From assembly GCF_000011485.1 (NCBI RefSeq), contig NC_005071.1, positions 933,347 to 997,346 of the forward strand: a DNA stretch of 64,000 nt, given 5' to 3'. The DNA is from Prochlorococcus marinus str. MIT 9313. Its GTDB lineage: Bacteria; Cyanobacteriota; Cyanobacteriia; PCC-6307; Cyanobiaceae. Both the position numbers and the translations under genes were made by a program. Below the pieces are notes generated by a model. It saw only the letters and a program-made list of their open reading frames with translations, made no database searches and had not been told where the DNA came from. Below, piece after piece: positions 34,850-44,799 of the stretch. How positions within the stretch are numbered: position 1 is the first letter of the stretch; every line of letters begins with the position of its first letter.

Positions 34850-35038
34850 ATGACCAGATACAGCAAGAACAAAAAAAGTTGTGTCCAACTTGAAAAGAAG
34901 TGGATCGAGGCTCGTTTTGCTGAATATCAGGACAACGACGAGGCCAGCGAGCCAAGCGAAGGGCAATTCTTCCTCATCGACAAGATCACAAGAGAGAAGC
35001 ATCTGGGTAGAAACCTGGCGCAAGCAAAGAAGGTTTAG
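34850..35038 (+). CDS. hypothetical charged protein, 62 aa
   Basis: Short, highly charged protein (VQLEKKWIEARFAEYQDNDEASE, then FFLIDKITREKHLGRN). A minus-strand frame overlaps it (34805-35023), but the plus frame has the more natural protein composition. No family recognised and no strong ribosome binding site. Confidence 0.35.
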   Translation: MTRYSKNKKSCVQLEKKWIEARFAEYQDNDEASEPSEGQFFLIDKITREKHLGRNLAQAKKV

Positions 35039-35173
35039 GGTTCCCTCGAAGATTCGATCGATTGATCGATGGGTTCTTATTGACGCAAACCGTATTCGAG
35101 ACGTTCAGGAGGTGATACCTAGCCCCGACCGGCCCTGGTTCCTCCGACCTTTTTAGTTCGCTCTCACGTTCTG

Positions 35174-35422
35174 ATGGCGTCATGCTGTAGAGGTCTTGAA
35201 CTGCACGAGCTGTACTCACGATTCGACGAAGACTTGAATGCTCCCTTTGGCTACACCATTCCTCGTGATCGCGTTGTTGTGATCCCTGATTCTGAGTACA
35301 AGGCTGCTCAGGAGCGTCAAACCGCACAGCGCGTTGCTGGTCTTGAAGCACGCAGAGCAGAGCGTCTCTCAGTTGTTGATCAGCTCGAGAAGCAGATTGA
35401 TGAATTGCAGCCTTCTCAGTAA
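35174..35422 (+). CDS. hypothetical protein, 82 aa
   Basis: N-terminal part has SRFDEDLNAPFGYTIPRDRVVVIPDSEYKA, and the C-terminal half is a charged helix (LEARRAERLSVVDQLEKQIDEL) likely to form a coiled coil. No membrane segment. A terminator follows at 35513-35541 on the same strand, which supports real transcription. Family not recognised. Confidence 0.6.
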   Translation: MASCCRGLELHELYSRFDEDLNAPFGYTIPRDRVVVIPDSEYKAAQERQTAQRVAGLEARRAERLSVVDQLEKQIDELQPSQ

Positions 35423-35512
35423 GAAGAAGTAACAGACAAGGGTTGGCGGCTACCAAAGAGTGGCCGCTGGGCCAGGTGATGGCGATCAGCTGGTCTTTTG
35501 TGAGTGGGTTAT

Positions 35513-36342: not shown

Positions 36343-36540
36343 GTAGGTTAAACTAGTCGCCCCCTAAAGCACACGTTCTTCCAAGGACGTCTTCATAGCA
36401 AACCTTATATTCAAACCTTCAAGCGACAGTTGATCCACTCATTATCAAACTGCATGTTGTATTTTTTGTAAAAATTTAAGCCAGTATCGTTCCAGGCGAG
36501 CGCCTGAAGAGACAGGGAAATGAACTAAGCCCTTGTCCTG

Positions 36541-36837
36541 ATGTCAGAAGAACAACTCAAAGCCTTTCTCGAAAAAGTAAAAGCAGACACCAGCCTTCAG
36601 GAGAAGCTCAAAGCTGCAGCCGGTTCCGATGCAGTTCTTGCGATTGCGAAAGCGGCTGGGTTGATGATTTCTGCTGACGACTTGACGAAGGCTCAATCAG
36701 AGATTTCAGATGCAGAGCTGGAAGATGCGGCTGGGGGAGGGGCTCAGGGCCCTGCTTGTTGCGCAGCAATGGAATCTTCGGATACGAGATGCGGCTGGGT
36801 GAGTTGGGTATTGAGTGAGGTCGTACCACCGCAATAG
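36541..36837 (+). CDS. prochlorosin-type lanthipeptide precursor (ProcA)
   Basis: Ribosomal peptide precursor with a Nif11-like leader. The leader MSEEQLKAFLEKVKADTSLQ to ISDAELEDAAGGG matches the ProcA family of MIT9313-type Prochlorococcus and ends in the double-Gly cleavage motif near residues 65-67. The core of about 31 residues holds Cys at 73, 74 and 84 with Ser/Thr at 79, 80, 82, 88 and 92, enough for up to three (methyl)lanthionine rings made by a ProcM-type LanM synthetase and cleaved by a bifunctional ABC exporter. Neither enzyme is in the window, which fits the known habit of scattered precursor genes served by one ProcM. A strong terminator follows at 36911. Confidence 0.9.
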   Translation: MSEEQLKAFLEKVKADTSLQEKLKAAAGSDAVLAIAKAAGLMISADDLTKAQSEISDAELEDAAGGGAQGPACCAAMESSDTRCGWVSWVLSEVVPPQ

Positions 36838-36910
36838 CCATTGATACTTACCATACAGATAAGCGAACCCTAGCTTTGCTTGTATTCAGCCAGTTTACAC
36901 ACTCAACCTC

Positions 36911-36934
36911 CCCCTGCATTGACAGGGGTTTTTT
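36911..36934 (+). terminator. intrinsic terminator of the prochlorosin gene
   Basis: CCCCTG (36911-36916), loop CATTGA, CAGGGG (36923-36928), then six T. A textbook rho-independent terminator 74 bases after the precursor's stop, so the precursor is a monocistronic unit. Confidence 0.85.
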
Positions 36935-37114
36935 ATTGCTTCAATCCCCCCAAAAAGCCCATAAACCTCCATCTAATACCTGACACCATTGCAAACAAAA
37001 CAGCTACAGCTTGCACCCATCCAGTCACCCAATGCATCTACAAAAAATGCAAGGCAGAGCAAATAAAGCCTCAGCATCTTTAGCCCTACATCTGTTTATA
37101 TCTCCTCAACCTAT

Positions 37115-37306
37115 TCACCAAAGTCTTCGATCCCTATCGCCATCAAGGATGCCATTGGCTTTTCCAAATCTCACCGCAACCTGATGCCATTCCTCAGGGA
37201 TTTGATTGAGGCGAAAATCAAACGCAAAGGGCAATCTTTGTTGGTCTGGAGAAACCCTCTTCTTCTTGCTTCTAGCTCTTCTACTGCTCACGAGTCGTTT
37301 AAGCAT
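37115..37306 (-). CDS. hypothetical basic protein, 63 aa
   Basis: Arg/Lys-rich N-terminus (LVSSRRARSKKKRVSPDQQR) then FAFDFRLNQIPEEWHQVAVRFG, which has a protein-like pattern. A plus-strand frame overlaps it at 37184-37414. I favour the minus frame weakly on composition. No family recognised. Confidence 0.35.
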   Translation of the reverse strand: MLKRLVSSRRARSKKKRVSPDQQRLPFAFDFRLNQIPEEWHQVAVRFGKANGILDGDRDRRLW

Positions 37307-37449
37307 GCGACTACCCCAATGAAAATTTGGAGCGCCTTTGATCTTATGGAGATAAAGCTGGCAGAAATGCTCATAGCTCCTGGCGCACCCATCAAGCGTT
37401 GCCGAGAGCTTTAAAAAGGCAGGACTCCATTCCGTGATACTATGTTATT

Positions 37450-37740
37450 TCAGCCTGCCGTAGTGGGTCGCTTCCCATAGATCAACTTAAGGATAAGGAT
37501 TGTCACGTTGAGTGTGAAGGTAATGATATTTGCAATAAGAACAGGAAAAGCATTCGTTTCTATTGCATAGATAATCCAAAACAAGAGACCAGTGATAAAC
37601 ATCAAGAGCATCACTATTGATACATCATCAGCCTTCTTGCTTTTCCATGTCTTTATGACCTGAGGTATGAATGCAATGGTCGTTAATGCAGCAGCTATAA
37701 AGCCGAAGGTGTTAGGAGTTATGAGTTGATCAATGCCCAT
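37450..37740 (-). CDS. SemiSWEET sugar transporter, 96 aa
   Basis: Three-helix half-transporter of the MtN3/PQ-loop family that dimerises to move sugars. The PQ motif is clear in TTIAFIPQVIKTWKSKKADDVSI, followed by helix 2 (MLLMFITGLLFWIIYAI) and helix 3 (PVLIANIITFTLNVTILILKLIYG). The length of 96 aa is right for a SemiSWEET. The substrate is probably a disaccharide or glucose, as in other bacterial members, but no residue here proves it. Single gene. Confidence 0.88.
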   Translation of the reverse strand: MGIDQLITPNTFGFIAAALTTIAFIPQVIKTWKSKKADDVSIVMLLMFITGLLFWIIYAIETNAFPVLIANIITFTLNVTILILKLIYGKRPTTAG

Positions 37741-42832: not shown

Positions 42833-43726
42833 CTATTGCTGGGATCTGATCACAATCCGATTGAGAACTTCCATCCCTCCAGTGATCAGAAGGTTAAGCA
42901 GCAAAAAACTGATTAACAACAAGAAGAATCCTTCAATCGCTCTGCCGGTCTGTGTGATTGTCGTATCACTTACCGCATAGACATCGGCATAACCTACGGC
43001 GATCGCCAATGTGCTGTTTTTGGCCAAGTTGAGATATTGGCTTGTCAGGCCAGGCAGGATGGCTGGTAAAGCTTGAGGTAACACCACCCGACGTAACCCA
43101 AAACGTTCTGGTAAACCAAGACTGCGAAACGCTTCCCATTGACCACTCGGAACAGAATTCAATCCACCGCGGACAATTTCAGCAATCGATGCTGCTGTGA
43201 AGACGCTTAGGCCCACTAATAAAGCCGAAAATTCAACGCTCAGATGTAGGCCAAGCAATTCGATGCCTTGGTTCGAGACACGTATCAAGGCTCCTAATGG
43301 CGCCAAGGGGGTCCCGGAAAGGCTTAAGAAAGCAACGAAATACCAAAACAACAGCTGAAGCAACAGAGGGATCTGCCGGATCAAGGCCACATATCCGCTC
43401 GACATTGCTCGCAACAGCAGATTGCGGCTACTTCTGGCAGCGCCTGCAAGCACTCCAATCACCGTGGCCAGAATAAGGCCGCAAAGGATGACCTTGAGGC
43501 TGTTTAGCCAGCCCATGCAAAGAGCCCAGGCATAACTATCCGAAGGCCTATAAGACAGCGGATGTTCAGCTAGAGCAAAGCCTGCAGGTCGTCCTAACCA
43601 AAGAAAGCTGAGCCCCATGTCCGTGCGGATCAGATTCACAGCGAGATTGTTGATCAACACGCCAAGAATGGTCAGCAGAGCGAGAGCGACGCCAACTTGC
43701 AAGCAAAAGTGCTGCGAGCGTTTCAT
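42833..43726 (-). CDS. aapQ: polar amino-acid ABC transporter permease AapQ-like
   Basis: Permease of the HisQ/AapQ group, 297 aa. N-terminal membrane anchor, a periplasmic loop, then the core helices. Coupling loop is WEAFRSLGLPERFGLRRVVLPQALPAILPGLTSQY; RQIPLLLQLLFWYFVAFLSL is the typical QLLFW motif. The ATG is preceded directly by eight C residues on its own strand and no Shine-Dalgarno sequence, so initiation may depend on the upstream aapJ. The second permease gene is separated from it by an HdeD-like gene and an opposite-strand gene. Confidence 0.88.
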   Translation of the reverse strand: MKRSQHFCLQVGVALALLTILGVLINNLAVNLIRTDMGLSFLWLGRPAGFALAEHPLSYRPSDSYAWALCMGWLNSLKVILCGLILATVIGVLAGAARSSRNLLLRAMSSGYVALIRQIPLLLQLLFWYFVAFLSLSGTPLAPLGALIRVSNQGIELLGLHLSVEFSALLVGLSVFTAASIAEIVRGGLNSVPSGQWEAFRSLGLPERFGLRRVVLPQALPAILPGLTSQYLNLAKNSTLAIAVGYADVYAVSDTTITQTGRAIEGFFLLLISFLLLNLLITGGMEVLNRIVIRSQQ

Positions 43727-43734
43727 GGGGGGGG

Positions 43735-44799
43735 TTAGTTAAATGGTGGCGCGATCAGTAAGCCACCTTGCCGATAGGAGCGATTTCGGCCTCTGGGAAT
43801 TGGCACAGAACTGTTTGGACCGAGGTGGCGGTTGTAGATCTCTCCATAATTGCCTGTGGCTCGGATCACCTTGACAACGAAGTCATCTACCAGACCAAGC
43901 TTTTGACCAAGGCCAGCATCAACGCCTAGAAAGCGTCTCAGCGACGACATCTGTGGGTTTGTCTGGGCTTGTTCAAGCTTGCTGTCGACATTCTCTTGAG
44001 TAATACCAAATTCTTCAGCGGCAAAAAGAGCAAAGACCACCCATCGGATGGCATCACCAAGCCGCTGGTCTCCACCCACTGAGGCTGGGGCAAGCGGTTC
44101 CTTACTCAGCACAACATCAAGAATGATGTGCTGTTCAGGATCAGGAAAACCAGATCGGGCCGCTGCTAGCTGAGAACGATCGGAAGTCATCGCTAGACAT
44201 CGACCCTGAAGGTAACCGGCGACAACCTGATTGAGATCTTGATACTTGATCGGCGTATAAGAAAGCTTTCGCTCCTGAAATGCATCGTTGAGGTTTTGTT
44301 CTGTCGTGGTGCCTGAGCCAACACAGATGTTGCTGGCTTTCAAATCCTGAAGGCCCTTAATTCCGCTACTTCGCTTGACCATCAACCCCTGGCCATCGTG
44401 AAACACCACCGGTGCAAAGGTGAGACCATTACCTCCTGCTGCATCCCGACTGAGATTCAATGTGGTATTCCGCGAAAGCAGATCAATTTCGCCTGTTTTT
44501 AAAGCAGTGAAGCGTTCGGGAGCTGTAAGAGGGCGATATTGCACTTTCGTGGCATCGCCAATAAATGCAGCGGCCATAGCGCGGCAGATATCAACGTCTA
44601 GCCCTTCATAGCGACCATTGCCAAGTAGAAAACTAAAGCCTGGGATCTTGCCGCTGACACCACAATTCAATTGGCCGCGCTTGCTGATCAATTCCAGCCG
44701 AGAACCACCACCTTGATCAATCGAGGCACATCCTGTGGCAAGCAAAGACAGAGTGACTAGACCTGTGGTTAAACGCCTCATCATGTTGTAACTATGCAA
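43735..44799 (-). CDS. aapJ: polar amino-acid binding protein AapJ-like
   Basis: Periplasmic solute-binding protein of the AapJ/NatF type, 354 aa. A signal segment with a lipobox-like LLATGCAS suggests lipoprotein anchoring at the Cys. The mature part has LELISKRGQLNCGVSGKIPGFSFL, GRYEGLDVDICRAMAAAFIGD and LTAPERFTALKTGEIDLLSRNTT, all typical of the family. The C-terminal part ends in GNYGEIYNRHLGP. Met residues at 44784 and 44781 are alternative starts. First gene of the transporter unit. Confidence 0.9.
   Translation of the reverse strand: MHSYNMMRRLTTGLVTLSLLATGCASIDQGGGSRLELISKRGQLNCGVSGKIPGFSFLLGNGRYEGLDVDICRAMAAAFIGDATKVQYRPLTAPERFTALKTGEIDLLSRNTTLNLSRDAAGGNGLTFAPVVFHDGQGLMVKRSSGIKGLQDLKASNICVGSGTTTEQNLNDAFQERKLSYTPIKYQDLNQVVAGYLQGRCLAMTSDRSQLAAARSGFPDPEQHIILDVVLSKEPLAPASVGGDQRLGDAIRWVVFALFAAEEFGITQENVDSKLEQAQTNPQMSSLRRFLGVDAGLGQKLGLVDDFVVKVIRATGNYGEIYNRHLGPNSSVPIPRGRNRSYRQGGLLIAPPFN

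Follow-up and report, generated by a model that had tools for sequence, protein, structure and literature searches.

The open reading frame at 36541-36837 is a real but ordinary prochlorosin precursor gene, served by one distant enzyme. It lies in the window, by which we mean the whole 64-kb stretch analysed, C1:933347-997346 of a genome searched as a single contig of 2,410,873 bp. Only one unusual point deserves following up: its third Cys may derive from leader-end DNA. The features on which the argument depends are as follows (window coordinates, strand).

36506-36540, +: 5′ flank beginning GAAGAGACA, also found at further procA genes from this leader subgroup
36541-36837, +: procA-type lanthipeptide precursor gene, 98 aa, with Nif11 leader, double-Gly site and Cys/Ser/Thr core
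36541-36738, +: Nif11/double-Gly leader, residues 1-66
36723-36739, +: first copy of a 17-nt direct repeat, AGATGCGGCTGGGGGAG, at the leader/core junction (DAAGG)
36739-36834, +: core peptide, 32 aa, as read from the translation, with Cys73, Cys74, Cys84 and five Ser/Thr
36787-36803, +: second copy of the repeat (16/17), AGATGCGGCTGGGTGAG, one frame off, reading RCGWV and supplying Cys84
36911-36928, +: terminator-like hairpin CCCCTGCATTGACAGGGG followed by TTTTTT, a 3′ element shared by procA genes
37078-37466, -: remnant of a Y1 (IS200-like, TnpA-REP type) transposase gene, decayed to its 3′ part and convergent with procA

A precursor of the ProcA family

The 66-aa leader (MSEEQL...ELEDAAGG) matches TIGR03798, the Nif11-like RiPP leader family, over residues 1-66 with an E of 1.7e-23, which passes the cut-off, and PF07862 with an E of 1.8e-16. 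It ends in a double-Gly cleavage site, ELEDAAGG, that fits an ELExxxGG-like motif. The preliminary description of this DNA had proposed a ProcA-like leader, a clear double-Gly site and three Cys plus five Ser/Thr in the core, and the translation and family matches uphold it; judged by its sequence, the ProcA-type identity of the frame is far beyond chance. The leader shares its subgroup with the leaders of other procA genes in the genome and is under purifying selection: against three paralogues of that subgroup its dN/dS is 0.13-0.14 (66 codons, simple counting method).

The genome holds 30 strong Nif11 precursors with similar leaders and different cores, so that the ProcA hallmark of many paralogues combining a conserved leader with unrelated cores is present. 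Groups of 5, 4 and 11 occupy 905-914, 1004-1017 and 2235-2245 kb, respectively, and 7 lie close to the synthetase; the window gene is one of three singletons. Some of the cores appear to be those of ProcA1.1, 1.7, 2.8, 3.3 and 4.3, which points to Prochlorococcus MIT9313. The same genome also carries a degenerate procA-like leader that lacks the double-Gly end (C1:1043870-1044016) and a truncated copy consisting of the 5′ flank and first codons, up to ATGTCAGAAG, with no Nif11 leader behind it (C1:1909487-1909531). For MIT9313, 30 double-Gly substrates have been described (PMC6363468), 29 ProcA are given elsewhere (PMC9298688), and ProcM modifies 29 ProcA with unrelated cores (PMC5686179); going by these numbers, the window gene is very probably already among the published 29 or 30.

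One protein in the genome, at C1:280135-283359 (-), has both a DUF4135 and a LANC_like domain. This ProcM-like LanM, the sole class II lanthipeptide synthetase of the genome, lies 687 kb from the window gene and carries a CCG motif (HLCCGS), as given for ProcM-like enzymes (PMC10783134). Two C39-peptidase transporters are found, at 1057585 and 2259273. All genome matches to LanM or C39 transporters fall outside the window, in agreement with the earlier statement that neither enzyme nor exporter is nearby. The term ‘orphan’ used there thus describes the gene locally; genome-wide it does not apply, as one class II synthetase serves all procA genes and most of these are distant from it. The genome search for procM and other procA genes that had been proposed returned that one synthetase and the 30 strong procA genes, and the preliminary reading, which had been staked on the genome encoding a class II synthetase, stands on this point.

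Core peptide and the repeat within it

The core that follows Gly-Gly is GAQGPACCAAMESSDTRCGWVSWVLSEVVPPQ. We compared it with the cores of the 30 strong procA genes of the same genome. The adjacent pair Cys73-Cys74 is present in the translation as first described, but the unusual ring topology that had been expected from it is not supported, since adjacent Cys occur in 9/30 cores; three Cys occur in 11/30, and five Ser/Thr lie within the family range of 1-6. The extremes of this core are limited to its length, the greatest among the 30, and to its Cys-free tail. The long tail had been singled out at the outset, and it is indeed uncommon: its 14 residues make it the second longest among the 29 Cys-containing cores. 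Because no Ser/Thr precedes Cys73-Cys74 within the core, these two residues would be able to close rings only onto downstream dehydro residues. The predicted loss of up to three waters confused Cys with Ser/Thr; with five Ser/Thr, the core should allow up to five dehydrations and up to three rings. Compared with the ProcA of MIT9313, the window gene shares the leader family, the double-Gly site, the hypervariable Cys/Ser/Thr core, the 3′ hairpin and a synthetase acting in trans, but it differs in having the longest core, 14 residues beyond the last Cys and a leader-end repeat inside the core.

The two copies of this repeat are 64 bp apart and hence one frame off. Thirteen exact bases, as seen here, were reached in 6 of 20000 dinucleotide shuffles of the downstream part and in 12/3906 real mismatched leader/downstream pairs, 7 of the 12 on one gene with a true duplication; without that gene the mismatched-pair rate is about 0.1%, with roughly 0.08 expected among 63 genes. 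These frequencies are suggestive, not proof, of an origin of the repeat by duplication at the junction. A clear case exists in a relative, at G001:C27:11729-11938, where GAGCTGGAAGGCGTGGCTGG is tandemly repeated at the leader/core junction; this out-of-frame duplication of 20 bp has moved the former core into another frame and given rise to a new core. In the window’s genome, the procA gene at C1:1017189-1017401 has a Cys-less core and probably makes no lanthipeptide; that core aligns with the core of the procA gene at 274805 through frame-shifting indels. Indels and a newly arisen stop likewise distinguish the procA genes at 905453 and 906436. We tentatively propose, while considering it a minority prospect, that new prochlorosin cores may arise by short frame-shifting junction duplications that recycle leader-end DNA (here, Cys84) as the leader stays under selection. 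If true family-wide, this would be a concrete route to hypervariable cores beside a conserved leader.

The same repeat can be read in another way, namely that the leader is intact while junction duplication and frameshift have recently produced a core that is not under selection, its tail being read-through rather than selected peptide. The out-of-frame 17-nt copy within the core, the core’s extreme length and its long Cys-free tail speak for this, and the frameshifted gene at 1017189 shows that decay of this kind happens. We nevertheless consider this reading rather unlikely: three Cys and five Ser/Thr remain, inside the family range, the reading frame is open, and other cores of the family are equally without relatives. 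For the core and its 3′ stretch, no significant match was found in the genus, in related loci or in viral contigs, and for the core none in GTDB genome contigs; the core sequence was likewise not found in the literature searched. The core has no orthologue against which selection could be measured, and it may be decayed or neutral. A resemblance between the core and the out-of-frame remnant at G001:C27:11729 (MEAAETRC / MESSDTRC) was dropped: the pair alone gives p 0.0005 but was picked post hoc, and shuffled cores equal the best core/remnant score in 51% of trials (all frames, 63 genes).

Predicted maturation

Because of the family match, the 30 strong paralogues, the single LanM, the two C39 transporters and the leader dN/dS of about 0.14, we consider it highly probable that the open reading frame functions as a member of the ProcA (prochlorosin) family. 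Its leader would recruit ProcM in trans, core Ser/Thr would be dehydrated and the Cys would then form thioether rings, after which a C39 transporter is predicted to cut after Gly-Gly and export the product. ProcM-modified ProcA peptides are described as losing their leader to the C39 protease of another system (PMC6363468). Modification of the precursor by some other enzyme, or action without modification, is very improbable: Nif11 leaders do serve other RiPP classes (PMC2887384), but the genome has a single class II synthetase, and the leader falls in the subgroup of other procA genes. As a predicted ProcM substrate, the precursor would be one more for a well-studied, promiscuous lanthipeptide system.

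Flanks and the same locus in a relative

The preliminary description had given the gene ‘its own terminator’. The hairpin and T-run are there (fold z -2.0), although a scan for such elements alone is not above chance, with 1 found against 0.9 expected; we assign the hairpin as a 3′ element of the procA family, and so not as this gene’s own, because a terminator-like hairpin follows 21/30 procA genes. A sequence scan found no sigma-70-like promoter site for the gene, there is no Rfam match near it, and the window contains no tRNA. Upstream, at 35010-35469, lies a dispersed repeat of ~460 bp that recurs in this genome at 1048948, 1063069, 1037955, 1040349 and 1042744 and also in relatives; the open reading frame within it has no Pfam match.

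The segment at 37078-37466 is a repeat present near many procA genes, and its full-length relatives are Y1 (IS200-like) transposases. Lanthipeptide genes have already been reported in association with TnpA-REP transposases, as the title of Laurenceau et al. states (bioRxiv 2020.03.09.984088, cited in PMC10783134). As far as that title describes such pairs, the window gene likewise has a convergent Y1 sequence on its 3′ side, but here only the 3′ coding part is left, without the catalytic part; no full Y1 transposase stands beside the gene, and the genome’s five Y1 domains are all located elsewhere.

The relative G001 has matching flanks on either side, at C14:41685-42735 and 42996-44151, which align at about 90%, but in place of window positions 36515-37345 it has about 260 bp and so lacks the gene. 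The G001 site keeps the sequence that starts the shared procA 5′ flank in the window, together with the end of the transposase repeat. Gain in the window genome by recombination at those two points and loss in G001 are both possible.
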